A stretch of 48,040 bases of DNA. Source: a virus. Numbering within the stretch: position 1 is the stretch's first letter; every line of letters begins with the position of its first letter. Shown here piece by piece: positions 2,462 through 44,516 of this stretch. Made by a program: the position numbers and the translations under genes. Below the pieces are notes generated by a model, which did no database searches, had not been told where the DNA came from, and saw only the letters and a list, made by a program, of their open reading frames with translations. The stretch spans positions 1 through 48,040 of the IMG/VR virus record IMGVR_UViG_3300020119_000032; one strand, 5' to 3'.

Positions 2462-2503
2462 AAAAATCTCCTTCACCTTCCGAAGAAAGTTTGGGAGATT
2501 TTT
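2462..2503 (-). terminator. Rho-independent terminator after terS
   Basis: The arms at 2462-2471 and 2494-2503 form a perfect 10-bp stem (AAAAATCTCC with its complement) with a 22-base loop containing a small CTTC/GAAG pairing. The outer A/T part gives a U-run on either strand, so it may act in both directions; the terS message reads into it. Confidence 0.7.
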
Positions 2504-6232: not shown

Positions 6233-6553
6233 GTGAAACTGTTTACCGTTACTTTTGAAGGTGAGGTGCTTATTGCCGCCGAGACCCAAGAGGAGGCGTT
6301 AAAAGCCTTCGACAAAGAGGAGCGCTACATTGTAGGCGACATAGAGTTTGATGTGTTTGCCTATGAGGTGCGGGACGTGTCCAAACTCCATGACAGCATT
6401 CTTGATGGGTGGGCTTATGGCGACAATCAGGACATGACAATCCGTGAGCAGTTCGGATTAACTCCTGAACAGATAGAGGCGAGGGAGGCCGAAGAGAAGG
6501 CCCGAGCCGAATTCGAAGCGCACCCGAAACTATTTGACTTGGCGATGGCCTAA
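6233..6553 (+). CDS. Early protein, unknown function
   Basis: A 106-residue acidic protein with a GTG start preceded by CGGAG. The first 60 residues alternate strands and helices (KLFTVTFEGEVLIAAETQEEALKAF), like small phage proteins that open with a 'strand-AxTxEEAL' unit. The last 30 residues form a Glu/Arg-rich helix. No function is assigned. Confidence 0.75.
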   Translation: MKLFTVTFEGEVLIAAETQEEALKAFDKEERYIVGDIEFDVFAYEVRDVSKLHDSILDGWAYGDNQDMTIREQFGLTPEQIEAREAEEKARAEFEAHPKLFDLAMA

Positions 6554-6621
6554 CACCGAATCCCACCTACCCCGCCCACAGGCCTGATTAGGCAGCGTAC
6601 GGGCTTGGCAGGTGGTGCAGT

Positions 6622-7395: not shown

Positions 7396-7688
7396 CGGTA
7401 GACGACTTCATCCATCAGCTTTGGAAAGAAGGCACTGAAGAAACTATGTCGATGCCGATCACCACGTTCACCCGAGAGCAGTATTGGGCTTCATATCCCT
7501 CATGGTCACGCGGCGGTGATAGAGCATGGAATCGTTACGGTCTCGGCGGCACAGACACGATGCACGCGATCATGTGGTATCAGCACATCCACAAACCGGG
7601 AAGCCGCGAGCATAGACCAAAGATCATCATGGACGCCGTCAAGAAGGCGGCAGAAGCAAAAGGAGACGGCAATGGAGCTTTGGACTAG
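7392..7688 (+). CDS. Early protein, unknown function
   Basis: A 98-residue protein started by the GTG of a GTGA overlap with the gene before it, with GGAGAC as ribosome site. It has a polar, Trp/Tyr-rich centre (YWASYPSWSRGGDRAWNRYG) and a basic helical C-terminus. No family recognised. Its last 17 bases overlap the next gene. Confidence 0.7.
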   Translation: MTVDDFIHQLWKEGTEETMSMPITTFTREQYWASYPSWSRGGDRAWNRYGLGGTDTMHAIMWYQHIHKPGSREHRPKIIMDAVKKAAEAKGDGNGALD

Positions 7689-7902
7689 CTGTTCATGCGG
7701 TGACTGCCTCAAGATCGAGACATCCCGCCACAAGGCAATCATGGAATGTCCTCACTGCGGCGTACAGGGCGTGAAGCGCATGGTACGGCCCAGGGAGGTT
7801 CCTGAGAGACCGTTGGACGCGGCCAAGGGCATTCTAGTGGGGCTGGTGGGGGCGGGCTTGGTATGGGGCTTCCTGTGGCTGTTGTTTGTGCCGAAAGGTT
7901 AA
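7672..7902 (+). CDS. Zinc-ribbon membrane protein
   Basis: A 76-residue protein. Cysteines in CSCGDC near the N-terminus and CPHCG about 17 residues later form a four-Cys zinc ribbon. A basic linker follows, and then one strong transmembrane helix (ILVGLVGAGLVWGFLWLLFV) at the C-terminus. The ribbon would face the cytoplasm if inserted tail-first. The AGGAGAC site at 7661 fits the ATG at 7672. Function unknown. Confidence 0.68.
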   Translation: MELWTSCSCGDCLKIETSRHKAIMECPHCGVQGVKRMVRPREVPERPLDAAKGILVGLVGAGLVWGFLWLLFVPKG

Positions 7903-7904
7903 CC

Positions 7905-8069
7905 ATGCACAACACCACAGTTAATCCAGGATGGGACCACCTTGCTATCTGGCTCGTCAACCACGGTTGGCCCTGTATAGACGAGATCGACACCGAGGAC
8001 CTTACATACATCATCACCACCCACTACGCTGCCTACCAAGAGGCGTGGGAACCGAGGCTGGAGCTATGA
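7905..8069 (+). CDS. Small early protein, unknown function
   Basis: A 54-residue acidic protein, Trp-rich (HLAIWLVNHGWPCIDEID). It starts two bases after the previous stop and ends in an ATGA overlap with the Lar-like gene. No domain recognised. Confidence 0.62.
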   Translation: MHNTTVNPGWDHLAIWLVNHGWPCIDEIDTEDLTYIITTHYAAYQEAWEPRLEL

Positions 8070-8248
8070 CTAAAGCCTACTGCCCGTTCTGCGGATGCTT
8101 AACACTCAAGACGGAACAAATCCTAAGCACGGATGGCGAATGGGCATACTCGGTACGCTGCGTCAATCCTAAATGCGCGGCAATCGGACCATTCAGGGAA
8201 ACCGCAGTTGAAGCAGTAACCGCATGGAACACGAGAATACAGATATGA
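8066..8248 (+). CDS. Lar-like zinc-ribbon protein (restriction alleviation family)
   Basis: A 60-residue protein. CPFCGC at the N-terminus, then CVNPKCAAIGPF and an ending in EAVTAWN, match the small Lar family. Its founding member in Rac prophage lessens type I restriction by altering restriction-modification enzyme behaviour. Many family members are untested, so anti-restriction is a family-level inference. The methylase gene lies 120 bases downstream, which fits a DNA-protection module. Confidence 0.75.
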   Translation: MTKAYCPFCGCLTLKTEQILSTDGEWAYSVRCVNPKCAAIGPFRETAVEAVTAWNTRIQI

Positions 8249-8251
8249 CGC

Positions 8252-8371
8252 ATGTTTCTAATGCATACCGACATCCACCCGTCAGCGTTCTGGTACGTGC
8301 TGCTGCCCGGCTACCGCATCATGGGCTGGGAGTGGGCTGAGAAGTGTGTGGAAGGGTGGAGGAAGCCGTGA
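8252..8371 (+). CDS. 39-residue protein before the methylase
   Basis: A short gene with a Trp-rich composition; its C-terminal half reads GYRIMGWEWAEKCVEGWRKP. Its TGA overlaps the methylase GTG start (GTGA), supporting it. Another ATG at 8245 opens a different, less convincing frame. Function unknown. Confidence 0.5.
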   Translation: MFLMHTDIHPSAFWYVLLPGYRIMGWEWAEKCVEGWRKP

Positions 8372-9231
8372 GCGTAGCAAGTGCCGCACCGAAGAGGCCA
8401 GTACTAAGATACCACGGAGGGAAGTTCCGCTTGTCAAATTGGGTCATCAAGCACCTTCCACCGCATAGGGTCTACGTTGAGCCATTCTGCGGGGCGGCGT
8501 CCATTCTAATGCAGAAGCCACGAGTCTATGCGGAGGTCATCAACGACTTGGACCTCGAGGTGGTGAACCTGTTCCGCATTCTTAGGGATCCGGAACGAGC
8601 GGACTGCCTGCGCCATTTGCTCGAGATCACGCCATTTGCCCGCGAGGAGTTCAACCTATCGTATGAGCCTGCCACAGAGCCTATAGAGGCGGCCCGCAGG
8701 CTGGTAGTCCGTTCCTTTATGGGATTTGGGAGCGCGGCCCATAACCCGAAGCACAAAACAGGGTTCCGCAACAATGCGAATCGGAGCGGAACGACACCCG
8801 CGCACGATTGGGTCAACTACCTGCCGTCCCTCGAGGTCTTCACTGAAAGACTGGCCGGCGTTGTGATTGAAAACCGCGATGCGCTCGAGATCATGCCTAC
8901 ATTTGATGGAGACGAGACGCTGTTCTACGTTGACCCGCCTTACCCGATATCTACACGCAGCATGATACGGTGGAACTCAGAATGTGATCGTTGCTATGTT
9001 CACGAGATGACAGACAACGACCACCGAGCATTGGCATCCGTCCTGCACCAACTAAAGGGGATGGTGGTTCTCAGTGGATATCGGTGCGATTTGTACGATA
9101 CCGAGCTATTCCCAAAGTGGACACGGATTGACCGCGCCTCACATGCTGACGGTGCTCGAGCTCGAGTAGAAAGCCTGTACTTTAACGACGCGGCGGCCGC
9201 GCGGCTATCTCAAGGTAACCTGGGACTGTGA
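8368..9231 (+). CDS. DNA adenine-N6 methyltransferase (D12 class, Dam-like)
   Basis: A 287-residue enzyme transferring a methyl group from SAM to adenine in DNA. RYHGGK near residue 14 is the D12 N-terminal motif (usually K-W-x-G-G-K), VEPFCGAAS near 37 is the SAM-binding motif I, and YVDPPYP near 190 is the catalytic DPPY. Motif order is that of the alpha group. The GTG at 8368 sits in a GTGA overlap; no partner restriction enzyme is present. It probably protects phage DNA or alters host control; target site unknown. Confidence 0.92.
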   Translation: MSVASAAPKRPVLRYHGGKFRLSNWVIKHLPPHRVYVEPFCGAASILMQKPRVYAEVINDLDLEVVNLFRILRDPERADCLRHLLEITPFAREEFNLSYEPATEPIEAARRLVVRSFMGFGSAAHNPKHKTGFRNNANRSGTTPAHDWVNYLPSLEVFTERLAGVVIENRDALEIMPTFDGDETLFYVDPPYPISTRSMIRWNSECDRCYVHEMTDNDHRALASVLHQLKGMVVLSGYRCDLYDTELFPKWTRIDRASHADGARARVESLYFNDAAAARLSQGNLGL

Positions 9232-11232: not shown

Positions 11233-11991
11233 ATGACTAAATCTGAGAGCTTCACTAAAATGCCTAACTGGTTCTTTGATGAGGGGTACGCTTCGGCAGT
11301 CGGCCCTAACGCCGTATCCGTGTACATGTGCCTTAGAAAGCACGAGAATCGAAACGGCGAGTCTTTCCCTGGAATGACCCGGATAATGGAGCAAACAGGG
11401 CTTACAAAGCCCACCGTTTTACTGGCAATCAAGGCCCTTTTAGCAAGTGGGACTGTCGAGGAAATTAGAGGAAAAGACGTTCCTGGAAAGCACTCTCAGG
11501 CAGTCCTTTACACCTTCTCAAGACCTGACGAACTAGTAAAGGCCCTTTACCGGTCAAAATCCTTTACTAGTAAAGGGCCTTTACCAAACCGGTCAAGTGC
11601 CTTTACCCAACCAGTAAAGGGCCTTTACCAGCCTTACACTATAAAAGACTCTAAGACTTTTAACAAGAGTACGGATAGTACGATTGATACTGATTCTGAT
11701 ACCGAATGGCTATCCATCTTTGAGAACTTCTGGAAGCTCTACCCAAGGAAAGAAAACAAGGCCAAGGCAAAGGACTGGTGGAGAAGAAACAAACCAGACA
11801 AAGCTACGCGCATCCTCATAGGGAAAAGCCTTGAGACTTACAAGAAGACGACCGGGTGGATCGAGGGGTTTGTACCTCACGCTATAACATGGCTCAATGG
11901 CAAGAGGTGGGAAGACGAACCAATGGCCGTAATCAAATCGGGAGAAGCAGCAGTAAATGGTTTCGTTCCAAGGAGAGCACCACGTGATTGA
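11233..11991 (+). CDS. Lambda-O-like replication initiator with internal origin
   Basis: A 252-residue protein. The N-terminal 95 residues form a winged helix-turn-helix (AVSVYMCLRKHENRNGESF, then MTRIMEQTGLTKPTVLLAI), as in phage initiators that bind origin iterons. A low-complexity Ser/Thr/Pro linker (about 100-155) is the part encoded by the iteron cluster. The C-terminal domain has ENFWKLYPRKENKAKAKDWW, a motif common in phage replication proteins that contact the helicase-loading step. The next gene is DnaB, which it probably loads. Confidence 0.8.
   Translation: MTKSESFTKMPNWFFDEGYASAVGPNAVSVYMCLRKHENRNGESFPGMTRIMEQTGLTKPTVLLAIKALLASGTVEEIRGKDVPGKHSQAVLYTFSRPDELVKALYRSKSFTSKGPLPNRSSAFTQPVKGLYQPYTIKDSKTFNKSTDSTIDTDSDTEWLSIFENFWKLYPRKENKAKAKDWWRRNKPDKATRILIGKSLETYKKTTGWIEGFVPHAITWLNGKRWEDEPMAVIKSGEAAVNGFVPRRAPRD
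11505..11629. repeat. Origin iterons inside the initiator gene
   Basis: AGTAAAGGGCCTTTACC occurs twice exactly (11569-11585, 11613-11629) and once with one change (11535-11551). Its half-site CCTTTAC recurs at 11505, 11544, 11561, 11578, 11600 and 11622, with the inverse GTAAAGG at 11536, 11570 and 11614. ACCGGTCAA also repeats. An A/T-richer stretch follows from about 11636 to 11700. This layout matches the lambda-type origin: initiator-binding palindromes then an unwinding region, all within the initiator gene. Confidence 0.8.
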
Positions 11992-21191: not shown

Positions 21192-21236
21192 TACAGGTAT
21201 TGACCAATCTTATCAACGGAGGGTAAAATACAGGAC

Positions 21237-21728
21237 ATGAAAACCTCCAATAACGCAAAATGCGCACAGTGCTCAGCAGAGTTTTACAGGATTAAATCAC
21301 GACTATCTAAATCAGCCCTTCAGTTTTGTAATGTATCATGCAAAGCCGAATGGCAAAAAACCGGACTGAAAGGTGAGTCCAACCCCTGCTATAGATACGG
21401 GAGACACATAGACAAGCGCACTGGATACGCCTACGTCGGCAAGCCTGCCAAGCTGGAACACCGCGTGATAATGGAGGCTCACCTTGGTAGAAAACTGCTA
21501 CGTTCTGAACACGTACATCATATCAACGGCATAAAAGGAGACAACAGAATCGAAAATCTCCAATTAATGCCTGCTTCCGATCATATTACTATGCATTCAA
21601 CAAAAGATACATGGAGCAAACACGGCCACTCGGAATGCATCGTATGTGGCACATCTTCTATTCGCCATAAATCTAAAGGTCGCTGTGCCAAATGTTACGA
21701 ATCTCAGCGTCCTTCAAGGAATAGATAG
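21237..21728 (+). CDS. Free-standing HNH homing endonuclease
   Basis: A 163-residue HNH nuclease. [15 protein letters not shown] and [19 protein letters not shown] contain the HNH core (H-H, N, later His). An N-terminal zinc knuckle (CAQC, then FCNVSC) and a C-terminal four-Cys ribbon (CIVC, CAKC) probably add DNA binding. It is the only rightward gene inside the leftward virion block, sitting between the tailspike-like and 21741-22055 genes, so it is most likely a mobile intruder. GGAGGG lies upstream. Confidence 0.9.
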
Positions 21729-21740
21729 CGTTGCCATAGG

Positions 21741-22055
21741 TTAAGAAGCCTCTAACGGACGAACACAAGGAGCCGAGATAATCCCATCGTTCAAGGTAGT
21801 CACCACGTCAAGCTGCCCGAACGCCTGAGTCACCTGGAGCTTCGTAAGATTAGCAACTCCCTCGCTTGTCCGGTTCTCAGTGACTATATCGGTATTGCCA
21901 GCCAGATTGTACTGACTGCCGCTTGCGTCGATCTGCTGCTGATACTTGATTTTCATGGCCGACACTTCCGCTTTAAGCGCACGGGCGCGTTCGCATAACG
22001 GGCGTATCTGCTCACGAACAAACCTCACGGTCTCCAAATCAGTTATGTCAGGCAC
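21741..22055 (-). CDS. Virion-region protein, unknown function
   Basis: A 104-residue protein starting with GTG behind AGGAGA. An N-terminal helical half (VREQIRPLCERARALKAEVS) precedes a strand-rich half. It could be a small tail or trimerisation protein. The HNH gene abuts its 3' end. Confidence 0.68.
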   Translation of the reverse strand: MPDITDLETVRFVREQIRPLCERARALKAEVSAMKIKYQQQIDASGSQYNLAGNTDIVTENRTSEGVANLTKLQVTQAFGQLDVVTTLNDGIISAPCVRPLEAS

Positions 22056-22068
22056 TAGAATCTCCTTT

Positions 22069-31642: not shown

Positions 31643-33612
31643 TAGCTCAGGAACGTGTACTCAAGAATTGAATCACCAAGTGATAAGTCGTTGTACGTGA
31701 ACTCCAGTTCAGCCCAAACTACCTCGCCCTTCATAGCCGTAGTCCACTGCTGCTCAAACAGGCTTCCGTGCTTACGGATGGAACTCCACGCAAAGATAGG
31801 CCACTGCTCTACGAGCTTCCCATCCGCATACCCGCGAATGGTCCCTAGTCTCGTGCCCCTTTTCGCCGAGGTGACCCCGTACTGAATGAAGAACCCAGGA
31901 CGTTTCGTGCGGTTCTCGGGCGGGCCATCACCATCAAAAGGGCGGGTCCGATAAAGAGCATTAACGGTAGCAGGGGCATCTATATCCTTTGGAGTGTCTG
32001 CCACAGTGAAGTAGTTCAGGTATGTTGCGAAGCTGGATAAATCGCCTATGGTTATGAACAGGGTCTCTGGTGCTGAACCGGGTATCTGGGCATTCTGGGC
32101 AAGATACCTTGTAACGGTCTTAATGAACCCATACCCCGCGTTAGACCAGCCGTTCGCCTGCAAGCAATAGCACAGCGTTTCGTTGCCGAGGCTGATATAG
32201 TATCGGTTCTGGCTATAGAACGAGTTCACGTTCAAGAAGACTGCCGAGGTCACCTGAATACTCTGCTGCCTGCCTGTGGAGGTAGGCTCATCAAAGTTAG
32301 CCGTAGCCGTGAAGCCCTGAAACATATGATCCAGTTCCGAGCTTATCTTCCTTATCGCGTATCCGTTCTCGTATCCGAGGGTATACACTCCGTCGTCGGA
32401 CAGGAAGAATACATCGTTTTCGCATCGTTGTACGCTTCTAGGGTTCGCGCAGCCTCGCTCATGAGCTGGTCTAAGTACGAAGGTGCTAGAGTCATCACCG
32501 TAGAGCAGCGAGATGGTGGTCCGCTTAAAGACAGCCAATAAGGACCCCAGATTAGCAAGTCCTGTGACTTCATTATCTCCCTTTCCTCCCACCATGACCC
32601 GTAGCCCGTCAGTGGCGTTGTCCGGTAAATCGAGGCTGCTGAACTGCGTAGGACTGCCTGCGTTGCTTATCTGGATAGTCGATGGGCTGATTTCGTCATT
32701 CAGCACCAGCCTGTCTTTCCAGAACTCCATTATATTCGATGAGCCTGAGAACGGAGGCCCAAGCGCACCGGGTGGATCGTTCTCTCCTGGGCTTGGTGCT
32801 ACGTCGCCTGTCGCTACGGTAGCATCAGAGTTCCCGTCCGCATAGTTACCTGTCCCGATAGCCACGGTCGTCACGAAGTTGAACGTGGTTGCTCCGGGGT
32901 TCAAGCGGTAGATGTTCCACGAAGCAATCCCCGTCAAACCCCCTGTCGAGCCTGAGCCTCTGGTAACCGTGACTGTGCGATTCGTACCTGTCAAGGTGAT
33001 GCTCGTGATGTCCGATGGGCTGCTCTCCCTGCCGAACTCATCCACCATCGTTGTCAGGTACGAGTATGTGCTGGTGAGAGTTAACGAGCCGCCCGCGCCC
33101 TGTGCTAACGAAGGTGCGCCGGGAGTATTGAGGCCAAGTGCATAGAAGTGCTCCGTGCCGCCGGGGTCTTCTACGTAGTACCGGTAGAGCAATCCCCCGA
33201 TGGAAATCACCAACTCCGTCTTGAACTGTAAACTCGTTACTCCAGCGGCTGCGGAGGCTCCGGCAGTGGCAACAGTTGTAAGCGCACCCAGGGAATAGTA
33301 ACTATGCTGTCCATCCAGCCGCTCGTCATAGTTCCACACGTTATACAGGGGAGTGGAGTATACGGTTGTCCCGCTGAACAGGAGGAGCTTATCCAACTGC
33401 CCGTCACTTGAGAGCCACGTTGCGGTTCCATGTATCGTTATCCCCAATGCACTCTGAATGGTCTTGAGCAGCGGAGCCATATCCATACGGTTCTGTCGCG
33501 CAGGCGTGAACCCTTTAATCAACTGGCACCGGTTCTCGGGCATAGCCGCAGGATCGGTATCCGTAGCCATCCCTAAAGGCGCACGATGAAGTTGTGAGGT
33601 ATACACACTCAA
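31642..33612 (-). CDS. Large tail hub / nozzle-type protein
   Basis: A protein of about 656 residues, rich in short strands and aromatic residues. A middle part (LANLGSLLAVFKRTTISLLYG, then FFLSDDGVYTLGY) is the kind of repeated strand pattern found in beta-propeller tail proteins such as P22 gp10 or the T7 nozzle. That fits its place after the connector-like gene (34434-35273). Starts: TTG 33612 overlaps the previous TGA and has AGGG upstream; ATG 33630 and ATG 33570 are alternatives. Confidence 0.68.
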   Translation of the reverse strand: MSVYTSQLHRAPLGMATDTDPAAMPENRCQLIKGFTPARQNRMDMAPLLKTIQSALGITIHGTATWLSSDGQLDKLLLFSGTTVYSTPLYNVWNYDERLDGQHSYYSLGALTTVATAGASAAAGVTSLQFKTELVISIGGLLYRYYVEDPGGTEHFYALGLNTPGAPSLAQGAGGSLTLTSTYSYLTTMVDEFGRESSPSDITSITLTGTNRTVTVTRGSGSTGGLTGIASWNIYRLNPGATTFNFVTTVAIGTGNYADGNSDATVATGDVAPSPGENDPPGALGPPFSGSSNIMEFWKDRLVLNDEISPSTIQISNAGSPTQFSSLDLPDNATDGLRVMVGGKGDNEVTGLANLGSLLAVFKRTTISLLYGDDSSTFVLRPAHERGCANPRSVQRCENDVFFLSDDGVYTLGYENGYAIRKISSELDHMFQGFTATANFDEPTSTGRQQSIQVTSAVFLNVNSFYSQNRYYISLGNETLCYCLQANGWSNAGYGFIKTVTRYLAQNAQIPGSAPETLFITIGDLSSFATYLNYFTVADTPKDIDAPATVNALYRTRPFDGDGPPENRTKRPGFFIQYGVTSAKRGTRLGTIRGYADGKLVEQWPIFAWSSIRKHGSLFEQQWTTAMKGEVVWAELEFTYNDLSLGDSILEYTFLS

Positions 33613-34001
33613 AAGATAATCACCCTGCATCCGGCAATCGCGCCGCCTGTCGTCAGGTTCACGTTCGCCACGTTACCCGGCAGGCTGATAATCAAGGGGC
33701 CGTTAGGGTTAAGCGGGATTCCCGTATCCCCGGTTACGCCCTTCAAGGTAATCGTGACCGCGTTGCCTCGTGGTGGTACGAAGATGAAGATGCGAGAATT
33801 TGTCTGGTCCAGAATGTTGATCTGGTTGAACCCGTTAACAAGGTTAATAGTCTCGTTGAAGATAGGCGCGAAGTTGCTAATCCACGTGTCTATCGGGATA
33901 GGGTTCTGCCCGGACAACGAGGCAATCGCGGATATGAACAGCTTGGATTTACCGGGCGCGTTCCATGTAGGAGGGCTAACGTCACGGATGTTCGCAGGCA
34001 T
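33609..34001 (-). CDS. Virion protein, tandem paralogue 2
   Basis: A 130-residue protein related end to end to the gene upstream (34011-34400): both have 'RDxSPxxW.APG', 'IFxPPxGNxxxITLKG', 'GDTGI' and a 'GCRxI' ending. The fold is probably a beta sandwich. They may form a hetero-oligomer, or one may decorate the capsid. Confidence 0.75.
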   Translation of the reverse strand: MPANIRDVSPPTWNAPGKSKLFISAIASLSGQNPIPIDTWISNFAPIFNETINLVNGFNQINILDQTNSRIFIFVPPRGNAVTITLKGVTGDTGIPLNPNGPLIISLPGNVANVNLTTGGAIAGCRVIIF

Positions 34002-35273: not shown

Positions 35274-35414
35274 TTACTTGCCTTTCTTCAGAGAAGGCGC
35301 GGGACAGAGATTCGGCATAGGCGGGTTCTGTGCAGGCTTTGCGCCCTTGGAAACCCCGTGATTACCGCTTTTAGGCTCCCCTTTGAAACCAGGATAGCCT
35401 TTTCCATCAGCCAT
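35274..35414 (-). CDS. 46-residue basic Gly/Pro/Lys protein
   Basis: A short gene starting MADGKGYPGFKGEPKSGNHG, with AGGAG upstream and its stop directly abutting the next TTG start. The composition suggests an unstructured basic peptide. It lies between the capsid-region and connector genes. Function unknown. Confidence 0.6.
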   Translation of the reverse strand: MADGKGYPGFKGEPKSGNHGVSKGAKPAQNPPMPNLCPAPSLKKGK

Positions 35415-35423
35415 TCTATTCTC

Positions 35424-35639
35424 CTATCGTGATAGGTTAGTGTCGTCTTGCTCTTTCAGGTCATAATGCCCGAGTTCAGGGTTAGTTAGCTGGCCCCATT
35501 CGTCGTACCTGAGCTTATCCCGGTACGTAGGACAGGCTGAGTAGCCATCGAATACCCTTGGCCCCCACTGCATGTGACGTGGGGGTCTAGGGTTTCTTCT
35601 GTACCTACAGTCTGGACGTTTACGAAGAGGCCATGCCAT
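35424..35639 (-). CDS. Small Arg/Pro-rich protein near the capsid gene
   Basis: A 71-residue protein with a very basic N-terminus (RKRPDCRYRRNPRPPR) and a polar C-terminus. It could bind packaged DNA or act as a minor head protein. No family recognised. Confidence 0.62.
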   Translation of the reverse strand: MAWPLRKRPDCRYRRNPRPPRHMQWGPRVFDGYSACPTYRDKLRYDEWGQLTNPELGHYDLKEQDDTNLSR

Positions 35640-35664: not shown

Positions 35665-36612
35665 TTATGCACCTGCGCTGCCGTAAGTGCCTTTCGCATC
35701 ATCCCAACCAACCGTGTATCGGACACTGGCAACCCAGACATAACCGCCAAGGTTGATGTCGTAGTCAGACTTGGCTCGGATGTCCTGCCGCTCGGCGAAA
35801 TTGACCATATGTTCCTGACCCATAAGGAACCAAGCATTATAAGCACCTGCCGCCGATGTTGCGCCAGTCTTGCGGAAATGAGGCCACTCAACAAGCTCCA
35901 AGTTATCCTGCTTTGCAGCGTTCATGTTGAAGTTGTTGGTGTTTCGTTCCCAATCCCCTTTAGCAATCTGAACCGCAACTTCCCGGAGTTTCGGGTTATA
36001 CACCAACTGCGCAGGCGCGTTGTTGATGATGTTGTAGTTGTTCGATTCAAGCTGCTGCACGAGGTTGGAATACCCCGCGTAGTACGTGGTGTGTGACAGG
36101 TCCACGTCCACGGAAGGCCGGTTGCTATACGTTACACCGCTGTTGTTCAGAGAGATAGGGTGCGCCGTATTGAACAAAGATTTGCCGTCAGGAGAATCAT
36201 TAACAGTAGAAGCTGCCGAGAACCCTGCAATGGCAAACATGTTGGCCGCGTCGTACTCTTTCTTGTTGGCGAAGACACGGGCCATCGCACCACCACGCGC
36301 AGGTACTACGCGCTTCAGTACCCCGTACTCGTCGTCGTCCCAATCTTCCTCAGCAATCACGTCACCGAGGGTTCGCTTGATTGGAAAGTACCGCTTCGAG
36401 AACGACTCCTGAATCTGCGACATGAACGCAGGCATCAGGGGCAAAGTTTGCTCTGGTGGAGCGTAGATTTCCCAACCCTGGCGGTCAAGAATACGTCCAC
36501 TCATTGGTATGACGTGCATCACACGGTCGTAGATGGTAGGATACGCCTTCATCTCCAGACCGAAGTGCTTATTAATGCCTTTGCCAAACAGTGAAGCAAT
36601 GGCGGTTGACAT
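35665..36612 (-). CDS. Major capsid protein (HK97 fold, Mu gpT-like)
   Basis: A 315-residue protein. Features typical of gpT-like capsid proteins are the long N-terminal region, FAIAGFSAASTVNDSPDGKSLFNTAHP in the middle ('xxGxxLFxxxHp'), YYAGYSNLVQQLES, and LVYNPKLREVAVQIAK. The usual upstream partners (portal, scaffold-like, decoration-like) are in place. AGGAGGG precedes the ATG. Confidence 0.88.
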   Translation of the reverse strand: MSTAIASLFGKGINKHFGLEMKAYPTIYDRVMHVIPMSGRILDRQGWEIYAPPEQTLPLMPAFMSQIQESFSKRYFPIKRTLGDVIAEEDWDDDEYGVLKRVVPARGGAMARVFANKKEYDAANMFAIAGFSAASTVNDSPDGKSLFNTAHPISLNNSGVTYSNRPSVDVDLSHTTYYAGYSNLVQQLESNNYNIINNAPAQLVYNPKLREVAVQIAKGDWERNTNNFNMNAAKQDNLELVEWPHFRKTGATSAAGAYNAWFLMGQEHMVNFAERQDIRAKSDYDINLGGYVWVASVRYTVGWDDAKGTYGSAGA

Positions 36613-36621
36613 GATACCCTC

Positions 36622-37272
36622 CTAGTTTGTGAAGAAACCGCCAGTATTGCGCGAGTAGAAAGTATTCTTGCACGTGACGAAGACCGCGCCACCGCCTGCG
36701 GCTGAGTTGTACAACGCGTCGTCCGTGTCTACGCCCTCAACGATGAACGGAGAGTTAGCCTGCGCCGTGTCGTCGTCAATCGTGTAGACAGCAGGCCATG
36801 TAGCCGCAGAAGCAGCAACGCCAACAGACCGGCCCAACAGATAGTAGTTCGCAGTGTCGGATGTCTGTGTCTTGGCCTTGAACTTGTTGGTCTGGTCAAA
36901 GCTAAAGACCCACAGTCTCGTATAGCCCGTGTTCGGGTCACTTGGCAGTGCGTTCGGGATAGAGGGGAGCTGCGGGGTAATTCGGCCCTTCGCGTCCACT
37001 GTAACCGGGGATGTGGTGCTGGTGATGTTGCCGCTGGAGTCCGTACCTACCGCGTAGGGGCAGACGCCAACAACACCGTTGGATGTCGTGATTGTGTCGC
37101 CTGACAGCAACGGACGAACCACGAGGTTTTGACCCGTGGTATATGTCGCGCTGTTCGTGTACACAAGCACGTCACCATTTGTAAGCTGAGTCGATTTACC
37201 GACCAGGACTTCAATTATGTCCGGCGTCGGGAATGCTGGACCTTTTCTTCCTGAATATGCGAAACCGGGCAT
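36622..37272 (-). CDS. Head decoration-type protein
   Basis: A 216-residue beta-rich, Thr/Asn/Gly-rich protein lying directly upstream of the capsid gene, with AGGAGG before the ATG. Its short strands (DVLVYTNSATYTTGQNLVVR, VTVDAKGRITPQLP) suit a decoration or capsid-accessory protein, and its position matches. Confidence 0.66.
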   Translation of the reverse strand: MPGFAYSGRKGPAFPTPDIIEVLVGKSTQLTNGDVLVYTNSATYTTGQNLVVRPLLSGDTITTSNGVVGVCPYAVGTDSSGNITSTTSPVTVDAKGRITPQLPSIPNALPSDPNTGYTRLWVFSFDQTNKFKAKTQTSDTANYYLLGRSVGVAASAATWPAVYTIDDDTAQANSPFIVEGVDTDDALYNSAAGGGAVFVTCKNTFYSRNTGGFFTN

Positions 37273-39341: not shown

Positions 39342-39565
39342 TTCTTACCTTTTTTACCAAGGATAGAGTTTGCCTTGGCGTCAATCGTCTTCTTCTCAGA
39401 AGGACTGGCAAATCGTGATGCAAATGCTTTTGCAGTCGCGGCATGTTTCGCATCCGGCATTGGGTACGAGCCAGTAACCGCACCACCCTTCTTAGTAGCT
39501 TTGCCCGGCAAGCCCATCTCTGACTTAGGAACAGCCTTGCGTGCCGCTGCATTTAACTTAGCCAT
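39338..39565 (-). CDS. Small basic protein after the portal gene
   Basis: A 75-residue Lys/Ala-rich protein (KLNAAARKAVPKSEMGLPGK; ends KGKK), the type found after portal genes in many podoviruses and often of unknown role. It could bind DNA or pack in the head. ATGA overlap with the gene below it; one-base overlap with the portal stop. Confidence 0.7.
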   Translation of the reverse strand: MAKLNAAARKAVPKSEMGLPGKATKKGGAVTGSYPMPDAKHAATAKAFASRFASPSEKKTIDAKANSILGKKGKK

Positions 39566-41565
39566 TAGAATCCTCCCATTCCGTTAGAACCGCCGCCTGC
39601 ACTCGCTAGAGCCTGCATCGCCTGATCATCTACCATCGAGTACCCCTGCTGGATACCTTGACCTTGCTGGTTGGGGTCTTGCGGTGCACCAATGCCCATA
39701 GGGCCTTGCTGCTCCGGTTGGCCGGTCATTGGGTCGATAGGTACGGGTGCAGGCGGCGGATTGCCGATATAGGTCTGTGGGCTTTTCTCTCCTGCCAAAA
39801 TAAGTAAACGATGGTACAGCGCGTAACAGTAGGACTGTGCGCCTATCTGGGTAGCTGGACCTAACTGCGTCCAGTACTGAGTCACTATCTCCGCAACCTG
39901 CTGCATCTTCTGCATTCTCAAGCTCGGAGATGCGCTCTCGCTGTTGGCCTGCGGGATGAACTGGAATTTGCGCTCGGCCTGCTCTTTGTTGATCGTCGTC
40001 TTCTGGCCGCCCTGCACCACGCTATCTTCATCGGACATATGCTGAAGCTGGTACGCGAGCATCAACTTGAAATCTTCCATAACGCCGCGCTGCGCATTCG
40101 ACAGGAAGAGGTCGAACTTGGTCTGCATCATGGCTTCGGAGAACTGGACCTCCGCCGCTTTGCGGACCTTCCCGCCCATGTTACTGTTGACGCTCTCAGC
40201 CGCTGCGATGCGCTGCGCGGAACTGTCAAGCATCTGGAGCCACGGCATGATAAGAGCCTGTGCGCCTACGTCCCAGACAATCGGCTCCATCCCACCGTCC
40301 GCACCGTTCAAGCGCGGCATCAGGCGTCCAGGAGCGAGTTTGTACTTCGCGTACTTTGTCAGCCACGCCTCGGGAACGCTCATTGCAGGCGTGCCTTCAA
40401 GGTTCATGTTATTGATACCGAACCTTGTTATGGCGGTCATCTCATCCTGAATAGCCGTGATGAGAGAGACGATACCTTCACCGAGTAATCGGTTGGGCTT
40501 CGGGCAGACGCAGGTGATAGAGTAGGGGCGTAATCCGTCTGGGCAGCTAGAGTAGGACTGCTTGAATACGATGTTCAGTGCGGGGCAGCAGAGCCACTCA
40601 CAGTCTACGTGCATCAGGGTATCTGGGATGCGGGGCTGGCACTGCTCGTTCAGAAGATACGGGGCGCGCCCAACTACGCAGAAACACTCCCACTCACCAG
40701 ACTCGCGAGGCTGGCCCATAACCGCCTCATTCAACCCATCCCGGATAAGCTCATCATTCCTGCTCGTGCCGGTCTCACCGTCAAACTGTGCAGGCCCGCG
40801 CTCTATCATCTCCGCGACGGCATCCGCATCGTATCCGAGGTCTTTGACTCCTAATAGCAGGTCCTCAGAGGTCAACCACATCCGTTCTATCGTGTTGATG
40901 CAGCCCTGGTCCTCTTGCGGTCCCCAGGCTGAGATCGGGTAAACGTAGAAGTCCCACGGGTCGATCGCTCGGAATTGGAATTTCTTCTCACCGGGAACCT
41001 CGGAGAGCACAATCTGGTCCTGCGCTTCGCTTTGGTCCTCACCGTCTACCATAGACGGGTCTAATATCTGCCCGTCAGGGGTTTTCTGTGCCAACTCGAA
41101 AGAGCGAGTGATAGGTTGCACCATATCAATGCGCTTAGGAGCGTAACGAGATTCCAAAGCGATATAGGTAGTGTCGTAAAGAGCTTTCTCATAGCCGCAT
41201 ATCTGAGCCTTGGTGTTGAGTAGAGTTTCTACGCTGGAGGCTCCGTCTGTATCCTCATCGTCCACGCTCTCCATCAAACAGTACGGGGACTGCTTCAACG
41301 CCGCGTACAGGGCTGCACAGAGGGTTGTGTGGAGTTCACGGGAGATTGGATGCTCTACTTCGCAAGCACCGGGCCACGGTTCTGAGCCTACCGTCTGAGA
41401 CACGCCCTCAAGCTGCCATCTAAGGGAGCGAAGGTCTTCATCTCTGTCGGCGCACGCGTTTATCACGTCGTGAACACGCTGGCAGAGAGCCATGTCCATA
41501 TCCCCCTGTAAATCAGGAGGTAGCTTCAGTGCGTACGGGTCGGTTGTCTCGGTATCTGCTGGCAT
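39565..41565 (-). CDS. Portal protein (P22 type)
   Basis: A 666-residue protein forming the dodecameric DNA entry channel. Hallmarks include EPWPGACEVEHP near the N-terminus, KKFQFRAIDPWDFYVYP, the stem region LLGEGIVSLITAIQDEMTAITR and a Gln/Gly/Pro-rich C-terminus. Length is near that of P22 gp1. There is no Shine-Dalgarno sequence before the ATG at 41565; a structured RNA leader with a tRNA-like 3' element ends six bases upstream of it. Confidence 0.9.
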   Translation of the reverse strand: MPADTETTDPYALKLPPDLQGDMDMALCQRVHDVINACADRDEDLRSLRWQLEGVSQTVGSEPWPGACEVEHPISRELHTTLCAALYAALKQSPYCLMESVDDEDTDGASSVETLLNTKAQICGYEKALYDTTYIALESRYAPKRIDMVQPITRSFELAQKTPDGQILDPSMVDGEDQSEAQDQIVLSEVPGEKKFQFRAIDPWDFYVYPISAWGPQEDQGCINTIERMWLTSEDLLLGVKDLGYDADAVAEMIERGPAQFDGETGTSRNDELIRDGLNEAVMGQPRESGEWECFCVVGRAPYLLNEQCQPRIPDTLMHVDCEWLCCPALNIVFKQSYSSCPDGLRPYSITCVCPKPNRLLGEGIVSLITAIQDEMTAITRFGINNMNLEGTPAMSVPEAWLTKYAKYKLAPGRLMPRLNGADGGMEPIVWDVGAQALIMPWLQMLDSSAQRIAAAESVNSNMGGKVRKAAEVQFSEAMMQTKFDLFLSNAQRGVMEDFKLMLAYQLQHMSDEDSVVQGGQKTTINKEQAERKFQFIPQANSESASPSLRMQKMQQVAEIVTQYWTQLGPATQIGAQSYCYALYHRLLILAGEKSPQTYIGNPPPAPVPIDPMTGQPEQQGPMGIGAPQDPNQQGQGIQQGYSMVDDQAMQALASAGGGSNGMGGF

Positions 41566-41570
41566 ATGTT

Positions 41571-41646
41571 TGGGTGCAGTCGAAGGAGTTGCACCTTCCG
41601 CCCTCCGCTAAGAAGTGGGACTCACTCTCCGTGAGCTAGACGCACC
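41571..41646 (-). ncRNA. tRNA-like element directly upstream of the portal start
   Basis: 76 bases with a GGTGC 5' end paired to GCACC near the 3' end, a TAGCTCAC...GTGAG D-arm, a GAAGG/CCTTC T-stem with a 7-base loop (TGCAACT), and a TTCTTAG anticodon-like loop that would read CTT (Lys). Against a working tRNA: the anticodon stem is mismatched, acceptor strands are of unequal length, and the T-loop has G at position 55. It may be a decayed tRNA, or a mimic acting in leader processing. Confidence 0.35.
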
Positions 41647-41660
41647 ATAAATGAAAGAAA

Positions 41661-41708
41661 GGGTCACTCAACCCCTTGCGGAGCGAGTAACCCTTGCGGA
41701 TTGAGTGA
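41661..41708 (-). promoter_or_regulatory. Mutually exclusive hairpins in the portal leader
   Basis: Stem A pairs 41701-41708 with 41664-41671 (8 bp perfect). Stem B pairs 41685-41693 with 41661-41669 (9 bp, one G-U) and is followed on the RNA by CTTTCTTTC, terminator-like. They share bases 41664-41669 and so cannot coexist. CCCTTGCGGA is also directly repeated (41673-41682, 41691-41700). Confidence 0.55.
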
Positions 41709-41722
41709 GTATAAAAGTTGTA

Positions 41723-41845
41723 TTTTGACTGCGCCGCTGCCGACTCTTTAAGGGTTCGGCTCCTATTTGCGCCCCGATGCGACTGCTCTTTTGGCCCTAC
41801 CCTCGGGGCTTGGGGTATGCGTAGCTCCGAAGAGCGCAGTCAAAA
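41723..41845 (-). ncRNA. Structured RNA domain closed by a 12-bp stem
   Basis: The arms 41834-41845 and 41723-41734 are perfect complements over 12 bp. Between them the minus strand can form GCTC-TTCG-GAGC (41835-41824), a highly stable UUCG tetraloop hairpin; TACCC/GGGTA and GCCC/GGGC pairings at 41794-41817 that compete; and an 8-bp hairpin with one mismatch at 41739-41760. A third GACTGC-type segment (41781-41786) could replace one closing arm. The UUCG orientation shows the minus strand is the functional RNA. Confidence 0.6.
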
Positions 41846-41864
41846 TGGCTCGAACAGGAGATGT

Positions 41865-42128
41865 TCAACTCTCAGTATAGCTATGTTCCGCTTCCGTGTC
41901 AACAATATCCTGCTCGTCCTCTTCATTTGGCACAGGATTGGTATCAATTACCGGGAAAAGTCTGCCGATAGTGACAAGTTCGTTGCAGAATTTGCACTGT
42001 CCGGTCAAATTCCAGCTTCCTTTGTCCTGCTTGATATCGTGGACCCTAAAGAATACGGAATCGCCTACAGGACAAGCAAGCGCATTGTTGCAGCGGGTGC
42101 ATTTGTTATCCACAAGGTTACTTGCCAT
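41865..42128 (-). CDS. Zinc-ribbon protein before the portal leader
   Basis: An 87-residue protein with CTRCNNALACP and, about 30 residues later, CKFCNELVTI: four cysteines for a zinc ribbon, followed by an acidic tail (NEEDEQDIVDTEAEH). The last gene before the structured leader; a GAACA/TGTTC hairpin (41852-41866) overlaps its stop. Function unknown. Confidence 0.68.
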   Translation of the reverse strand: MASNLVDNKCTRCNNALACPVGDSVFFRVHDIKQDKGSWNLTGQCKFCNELVTIGRLFPVIDTNPVPNEEDEQDIVDTEAEHSYTES

Positions 42129-42783
42129 TTATTTCCGCCATTCCTTTGAGTATCGGGCATTCGCCATCTTCGCATGAGTGTACGACGTGTAACCCACACC
42201 GAACCTGGGGTATCTTGAACCACTTCAGCTTGTTCCACTCTGCAAACTCCTCTGCCGCCTTCGCTACAGGTGGGTCGTCGCTATCATGGAATAGCCAGTG
42301 TGCGCCCTTCTGAGCGTAGTTGTAGGATTCGAACGCATCGCGCAGGGCGTGCTCGTATTCGTGGTTGGCGTCGATGTGGATGAGGTCAAACTGGGTAGGG
42401 CTGTGGCTTCCATATCTATGCTGAAAAGAATGCCATGAGGCAAAGTATGTAGGCAGGACTGTGAATTCACGAGCCGCTAACTGCTTGCCATATTGAATAC
42501 TTCCGGGCCACTGGCTCTCATCGTCTATCCAATGAACTTCTGAGTAGTGAGCGTCTATGCCAGATAACAGGCTCAACGTACTGTACCCGTACCCCACACC
42601 CACCTCAAGGAACGCTTTGGGCTGGAGCCACTGTCCGAGTCTTCTGTACCAAGCGTACTGCTGGATAACTTCATTCCAGGTTAAAGTACTATCTCCAGGG
42701 TTCCACAGCACACCTCCTACAGTAGTCTGAGATGGATGAAACCAGCGGTTTACCAAGGCGTCCTTAAACTCTTCATCAGTCAT
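42118..42783 (-). CDS. Class I SAM methyltransferase (Methyltransf_24 type)
   Basis: A 221-residue enzyme. Motif I is FLEVGVGYGYSTLSLLSG near residues 58-75, then VHWIDDES and the characteristic DLIHIDANHEYEHALRDA near 133-150, with HDSDD as metal-site candidate. Related enzymes methylate sugars or small molecules and sit in glycan gene clusters. Here it lies in the same operon as three glycosyltransferases, so methylation of a phage-made sugar is a reasonable inference. Confidence 0.82.
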   Translation of the reverse strand: MTDEEFKDALVNRWFHPSQTTVGGVLWNPGDSTLTWNEVIQQYAWYRRLGQWLQPKAFLEVGVGYGYSTLSLLSGIDAHYSEVHWIDDESQWPGSIQYGKQLAAREFTVLPTYFASWHSFQHRYGSHSPTQFDLIHIDANHEYEHALRDAFESYNYAQKGAHWLFHDSDDPPVAKAAEEFAEWNKLKWFKIPQVRCGLHVVHSCEDGECPILKGMAEINGK

Positions 42784-43536: not shown

Positions 43537-44516
43537 AGATGAGGCTCCATCCATTGAATGATGTCGTCAACGCCGTGCCTGCCGTAAATCATAGGCAGGG
43601 CCTTCTGTGCTGAACCGGGATACATCCACGCGCTTGCCATTCTTTCATCGAATGTCAGGTTGCCACCCTCCACGATACTATCCCCTTCAGGGCGCCACCA
43701 GATAGCTGTAGGAACGTTCAGGTAGTGCGACATGATACCTATCCCGGACTGGTAGGAGACAACAGCTTTGGCCTGTGAGCAGATTTCAAGGGTTTCGAGG
43801 ATGGAGAATTCTGAGATGCAATTGGTCCAGTTGTCCAGGCAGTCGGTATCAATAAGCGGTTCAACATGCTTTTCATAGTAGCTCGCATCGTAGCCTGCAC
43901 CGACTACCACGATTTGAATTCCATACTCTCGAATCAGAAGGCAGCCAAGTTTAGCCCAATCATCTACCGTCCACAGCGCACCTCGGTTATGCCCTGCCTT
44001 ACTGCTTTCGAGATTGTTGCACTCCGCGCCCATGAAGAATACGACATAGGGGGAGTCTAATAGAGGGCGCAAGTCTTTGCCAATAACAAAATCGTGAAGG
44101 ATGCGGCTCCAATCAATCTTATACTCAGGCAGCCAATCTTCCAGCCTGACACCATTCTCCAAATCACGGTTAGGGATAGCTACGAAGTCCACCTCATCGC
44201 GCAGGTAGAACGGTGGTTTTCCATCAGGAATGTACCTGTAGCGGCCCTTCTCGTCCGTAGGGTCACCTGGAAGCAGCAGAGGCCCCTTGGAGCCGTTCAC
44301 AGGCGGTATCTGGAGGTATCGGGCACTGCTTACGAAGTCGAAGCGGCGCAGGAGTGGCAATGCGCGGCATTCAAGCTCGTTACGGTTCCAGCCACCGATA
44401 AGGATTTCTACGGAGTCATGACCGTGCTTGCGGGCTATGTCCTGCGCTTTTGTAAGGCACCAGACGGAATCCCCGATACCTTGGGCTGTGAGGATGCGGA
44501 ATGGTCTATTTGCCAA
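43533..44516 (-). CDS. GT9-like (heptosyltransferase-type) glycosyltransferase
   Basis: A 327-residue protein. ILTAQGIGDSVWCLTKAQDI is the first GT-B strand-loop with the G-x-G-D typical of ADP-heptosyltransferase-like enzymes, and AVVSYQSGIGIMSHYLNVPTA is the C-terminal nucleotide-sugar-binding segment. It is a distant relative; donor and acceptor are unknown. A similar enzyme is at 46544-47479. Confidence 0.78.
   Translation of the reverse strand: MANRPFRILTAQGIGDSVWCLTKAQDIARKHGHDSVEILIGGWNRNELECRALPLLRRFDFVSSARYLQIPPVNGSKGPLLLPGDPTDEKGRYRYIPDGKPPFYLRDEVDFVAIPNRDLENGVRLEDWLPEYKIDWSRILHDFVIGKDLRPLLDSPYVVFFMGAECNNLESSKAGHNRGALWTVDDWAKLGCLLIREYGIQIVVVGAGYDASYYEKHVEPLIDTDCLDNWTNCISEFSILETLEICSQAKAVVSYQSGIGIMSHYLNVPTAIWWRPEGDSIVEGGNLTFDERMASAWMYPGSAQKALPMIYGRHGVDDIIQWMEPHL

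Follow-up and report, generated by a model that had tools for sequence, protein, structure and literature searches.

Ahead of the portal gene of this virus lies a gap that may be a 5′ untranslated leader in which a promoter and a terminator gate the portal and structural genes, a reading to which we give an even chance. Four things can be read directly from the DNA: a close match to a sigma70-type promoter at the 5′ end of the gap, a hairpin with a T-tract at its 3′ end, the conservation of both in a relative, and the first rank of the hairpin across the genome. The original prediction had proposed a structured RNA leader that regulates the portal gene and had overlooked both the promoter at 41902-41874 and the terminator character of the hairpin at 41659-41695. 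These two conserved elements now speak for a regulatory leader, whereas the closing stem, the tRNA-like element and the alternative stem on which that proposal leaned do not hold up.

The window, by which we mean the whole stretch of DNA analyzed, is an IMG/VR virus record of 48,040 bp. Its two ends share a direct repeat of 127 bp, so the record probably represents a whole circular phage genome of approximately 47.9 kb. The gap (41566-41864) lies where it had been placed, between the portal gene and an 87-aa ORF on the minus strand, in a leftward arm that also holds terminase, capsid and head-tail genes:

39565..41565, minus strand: portal gene, SU10 type (PF23899, E 9.5e-14; phrog_1216, E 2.1e-12)
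41865..42128, minus strand: 87-aa ORF without a known family, with the promoter in its 3′ end
296-2008, leftward arm: terminase gene
35665-36612, leftward arm: capsid gene, Mu gpT-like (weak match)

It is also the longest gap of this arm, as claimed, save for 21192-22068, which carries an HNH gene on the opposite strand. Another opposite-strand ORF, 41718-42149, extends into the leader and is not preserved in the leader of the relative. Leftwards across the junction of the two ends, a block of approximately 6 kb with methyltransferase and glycosyltransferase genes comes after terminase, and the leader and the portal gene come next; in the distant phages examined, which have a capsid fold in common with the window, the portal gene directly follows terminase. 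The portal ATG lacks a Shine-Dalgarno site, which was thought to set it apart from its neighbors. This is half right: such a site precedes most of the next genes downstream, but the leftward genes starting at 43554, 44516, 46407 and 33630 also do without one.

Three other features of the window deserve mention. Two more hairpins with T-tracts, at 266-299 and 2467-2498 (minus strand), flank the terminase gene, each closely preceding a promoter-like site (TTTACA-17-TATACT or TTGATA-17-TATACT). A cluster of four 21-nt repeats with inverted copies (GTAAAGGCCCTTTAC) at 11532-11631, within the replication-initiation gene, is possibly an origin. The third is a weak Rfam match at 35412-35481 (minus strand), the best one downstream of the Mu gpT-like capsid gene. 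It is to Mu-gpT-DE RNA (RF03012) and scores 17.7 bits in the window and, at the corresponding site of the relative (6545-6614), 12.5 bits, against a cut-off of 49. It sits where the family is expected and ends at the AGGAGA...ATG of a 46-aa ORF; the match is below threshold and mostly a Shine-Dalgarno stretch, and it may be chance.

Queries with the portal (whole and conserved core), terminase, capsid and head-tail proteins against IMG/VR and GTDB genomes found only IMGVR_UViG_3300014968_000030, here called the relative, a 21.3-kb record whose portal protein is 97% identical and whose portal-region DNA is 88% identical to that of the window. Among 50,697 phage records, tblastn with the portal gave no match, and the capsid matches lay at 23-30% identity. 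DNA patterns built from the 3′ hairpin or from the promoter plus palindrome retrieved the relative and one AT-rich contig that shares no protein with the window, and blastn of the leader against phages and plasmids returned only a 28-nt chance match. The leader is approximately 130 nt long in the relative, compared to approximately 300 nt in the window, and the first 25 portal codons show six synonymous and three nonsynonymous differences. Between window and relative, the longest stretch of identity (113 nt, 36596-36708) covers the end of the gene at 36622-37272 and the start of the capsid gene. The relative also holds two diverged copies (7598-7975 and 8007-8393) of a gene that is single in the window (33609-34001). 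Limited as it is to one genome, this comparison separates the striking “structures” of the leader into conserved and lineage-specific parts.

At the 5′ end of the leader, the following features cluster in and just beyond the end of the upstream gene:

41874..41902, minus strand: predicted sigma70-type promoter (TTGACA-17 nt-TATACT) within the 87-aa gene, at its 3′ end
41848..41923, minus strand: 76-nt block identical in the relative, spanning the promoter, the predicted start site and the 5′ palindrome
41850..41868, minus strand: palindrome TTGAACA-TCTCC-TGTTCGA at about +1, conserved at 19/19 positions, the sole perfect copy in the window

The promoter matches 11 of the 12 consensus positions with a spacing of 17 and is the best promoter-like site on the minus strand. 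It was scored against the sigma70-type consensus (TTGACA, 17 ± 1 nt, TATAAT), on the assumption that these rules apply in the host. Three sites as good occur in the genome, compared to a mean of 0.35 per shuffle, and none of the 40 shuffles reached three. The promoter sequence is identical in the relative. Since sigma70 promoters usually start transcription 6–8 nt past the −10 box, the transcript should begin at about 41868, in the first bases of the gap, and the gap would therefore correspond to an untranslated leader.

The 76-nt block around this promoter is the second longest identical run between window and relative over 21 kb. It takes in roughly the final 19 codons of the upstream gene with no synonymous change, and the gene is far less alike further upstream. 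Part of this identity could reflect recent recombination rather than constraint. The palindrome, for its part, would act either in the DNA, as an operator, or in the transcript, as a 5′-terminal hairpin; with respect to the operator reading, the window has somewhat frequent GAAC-N-GTTC sites, whose spacing varies.

The 3′ end of the leader carries the second conserved element:

41659..41695, minus strand: terminator-like hairpin of 16 bp with a GCAA tetraloop (AAGGGTTACTCGCTCC GCAA GGGG T TGAGTGACCCTT)
41649..41660, minus strand: T-rich tail TTTCTTTCATTT after the stem, identical in the relative
41646..41715, minus strand: conserved 3′ block of the leader, 68/70 nt identical in the relative
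41701..41708, minus strand: TCACTCAA, able to pair with TTGAGTGA of the terminator 3′ arm

Like an intrinsic terminator, this element consists of a stable, G+C-rich stem-loop with a T-rich tract at once behind it. The hairpin has a predicted stability of −24 kcal/mol and a pairing probability near 1 when the full leader is folded at equilibrium, and the segment around it (41651-41722) is the strongest-folding part of the gap (z = −5.2, 0/500 shuffles). We ranked hairpins by a terminator score after d’Aubenton-Carafa, which serves here for ranking only. By this score, the hairpin (41693-41661) comes first among all T-tract hairpins on both strands of the window, as does its counterpart in the relative. 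A score this high arose in 3 of 40 shuffled genomes, and the combination of d ≥ 20 with dG ≤ −20 kcal/mol in 1 of 40, anywhere in 96 kb of strand; the position of the hairpin had been fixed beforehand and is conserved.

Conservation points to the same element. The relative keeps all 16 pairs, one of them by a change from A-U to G-U, and the two substitutions in the 70-nt block, one of which lies outside the hairpin, both leave the terminator fold intact. Pairing conservation is judged here from two genomes, so that covariation amounts to this single change. Because the T-tract TTTCTTTCATTT is interrupted by C and A, termination at the hairpin may be partial. A conserved −10-like TATACT, which has no −35 box, lies ahead of the hairpin. 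The portal ATG of the relative lies just 14 nt beyond the stem; this leaves no space for a further promoter, and the portal mRNA must therefore cross the hairpin.

The remainder of the leader differs between the two genomes, including the two parts that had seemed most distinctive:

41722..41846, minus strand: central domain closed by a perfect 13-bp stem (41722-41734/41834-41846)
41566..41648, minus strand: 83-nt insertion/deletion difference, flanked by TATG, which contains the “tRNA-like” element (41571-41644)

The closing stem had been given as a perfect 12-bp stem (41723-41734/41834-41845); perfect it is, but its length is 13 bp. Its pairing probability in the full leader is approximately 0.87, and the window contains four perfect inverted repeats of at least 13 bp with a loop of at most 150 nt, compared to 0-1 per shuffle (40 shuffles). 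In the relative, an unrelated 34-nt sequence replaces the whole domain and forms an equally stable 12-bp hairpin (GCGCCCUAGAGU-CCCUGUA-GCUUUAGGGCGC). We also considered the stem as the terminal repeats of a mobile element and rejected this idea: it has no other copy in viral contigs and none further in the window, and no flanking target duplication was seen. The sequence does contain the UUCG hairpin and the GCCC/GGGC and TACCC/GGGTA pairings as described, and the gap as a whole folds better than shuffles (z = −2.86, 2/200).

The 83 nt at the 3′ end are missing from the relative, where the portal ATG stands directly after CATTT. The TATG on both sides of the difference fits a short-repeat deletion or insertion. 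In the window, the ATG that starts the portal gene of the relative (41646-41648) opens an 8-codon frame, MVRLAHGE, out of frame with the portal gene. The tRNA-like element lost in the relative does not hold up in the window either. ARAGORN at default settings finds no tRNA; at an 80% threshold the element scores, as do 70 of 2000 shuffles (3.5%) and 22 other places in the window, 23 with this one, which is chance level. Its own fold has z = −1.6, its acceptor stem has a pairing probability of 0.04 in the full leader, and the best Rfam match there, a tymovirus tRNA-like structure, reaches 18.6 bits against a cut-off of 40. Relatives were expected to keep the pairings of the leader if these mattered; this one has the pairings of the hairpin at 41659-41695 but neither those of the 12-bp stem nor those of the tRNA-like element.

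As the original prediction had it, no known RNA family is recognizable: an Rfam scan of the window and of the leader of the relative gave nothing above cut-off, riboswitches and other cis-regulatory families included. Nor do the two leaders share a conserved peptide. That of the relative contains no ATG, and TTG or GTG frames either differ between the genomes or are very short. Attenuation by translation of a leader peptide was rejected for want of a conserved frame.

Several other explanations could account for parts of this picture. A possible but doubtful one is an ordinary, stabilized 5′ UTR, in which the promoter is real, the hairpins protect an abundant structural mRNA or act as processing sites, and little termination occurs. 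The hairpin that begins at about +1 and is conserved at every position would suit this role, as would the imperfect T-tract and the exchange of the central hairpin for an unrelated one of equal stability, as if any hairpin sufficed. It does not explain why the 3′ hairpin tops the terminator score in both genomes with its T-tract kept exactly. Termination without regulation seems to us unlikely. Here a constitutive partial terminator would damp or insulate transcription from terminase and the methyltransferase/glycosyltransferase block, and leak-through would set the dose of portal protein. The leader does lie at the downstream edge of that block, which separates terminase from portal here; the distant phages that share the capsid fold have the two genes side by side. 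However, a promoter conserved letter for letter stands between the block and the hairpin; the terminator would therefore stop the new transcript too, which is wasteful unless regulated.

Two further alternatives place the function in the RNA itself. In an RNA-only switch, which we regard as improbable, the upstream copy of the tandem TCCGCAAGGG repeats would pair with the terminator 3′ arm, and a ligand, a protein or the ribosome would decide between the two forms. The two competing stems at 41661-41708 that had been proposed are indeed readable in the sequence, and 41701-41708 is a possible antiterminator strand: it forms 8/8 pairs in the window, where the alternative stem is predicted in the growing chain, only transiently, just before the terminator completes. 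At equilibrium, however, its probability is near zero, one pair is broken in the relative (7/8) by the substitution outside the terminator hairpin, the growing chain of the relative does not form the alternative, and the searches gave no match to a known riboswitch family. It is hardly credible that the leader is a structural or packaging RNA in the loose manner of the phi29 pRNA, perhaps with a tRNA-like end. The leader adjoins the portal gene and folds somewhat more strongly overall than shuffles, which is what the suggestion has in its favor. The phi29 pRNA serves a different genome-packaging system, and it gave no Rfam match at gathering score, nor in the leader at E up to 5. The leader of the relative is less than half as long, lacks the tRNA-like part and contains an unrelated central hairpin, and the tRNA score is at chance level. 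Neither sequence, Rfam nor the relative thus lends support to this idea.

We therefore return to the promoter-terminator leader, for which we infer a transcription start, termination, and a readthrough switch with its timing. Transcription would start at about 41868 from the sigma70-type promoter within the final codons of the upstream gene, and approximately 210 nt on (130 nt in the relative) polymerase would reach an intrinsic terminator directly before the portal gene. Most early transcripts would end at the hairpin and yield a short, structured RNA. Later in infection, readthrough into the portal gene and the genes behind it would be permitted by a factor or by a change in the growing transcript, much as with lambda pR′-tR′ and Q or with AlpA. 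In a more specific form, which we consider quite unlikely, the nascent RNA (5′ hairpin, GCAA hairpin and tandem TCCGCAAGGG repeats) would act together with a phage factor to gate the capsid genes, and the terminated form would be a stable small RNA.

Q-type proteins load at the promoter spacer and the first transcribed bases, and both are invariant between window and relative. Unlike lambda, the genome contains no match to the Q-family profiles PF06530 and PF03589, and we do not assign the leader to the Q system; with PF06323, not even the control gave a match. Because many of the early genes lack a known family, an unrelated antiterminator could be among them. Lambda pR′ and tR′ are a published precedent for a promoter-terminator leader (PMC4604602), and the likeness, on our side drawn from sequence, extends to a promoter, an untranslated leader of 100-200 nt, an intrinsic terminator and late genes behind it. 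In contrast to lambda, where lysis genes follow, the leader here precedes portal and structural genes, its terminator touches the first start codon, and no −10-like pause element better than 3/6 was recognized by eye.

Other systems resemble the leader in part. In the Pseudomonas aeruginosa alpBCDE operon, controlled by AlpA, intrinsic terminators stand immediately upstream of the first gene (PMC7969949). The arrangement behind a promoter and immediately before the first ORF is the same here, although alpBCDE is a bacterial operon with a known regulator and a tested terminator. The gene transfer agent cluster of Caulobacter, under GafY/GafZ, combines a long untranslated leader with terminators that are subject to antitermination (PMC11150451). 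It, too, is a phage-like structural gene cluster with a leader and terminators, but its terminator follows the first gene and is made of 150-bp repeats, and GafZ is unrelated to Q. Finally, in the case of HK022 put RNA, a phage transcript begins with neighboring stem-loops (PMC9378689). Adjacent 5′ stem-loops also occur in the window leader, but the second is not conserved in sequence in the relative, which speaks against a sequence-specific element of the put type.

It is plausible that the leader is a fresh case of an already known type of control in an orphan phage. If the promoter-terminator reading is true, a phage with one close relative in the collections searched would gate its structural genes without a recognizable Q. 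This would point to an unrecognized antiterminator, and a small, defined DNA fragment of approximately 330 bp from the site could serve in the search for it.
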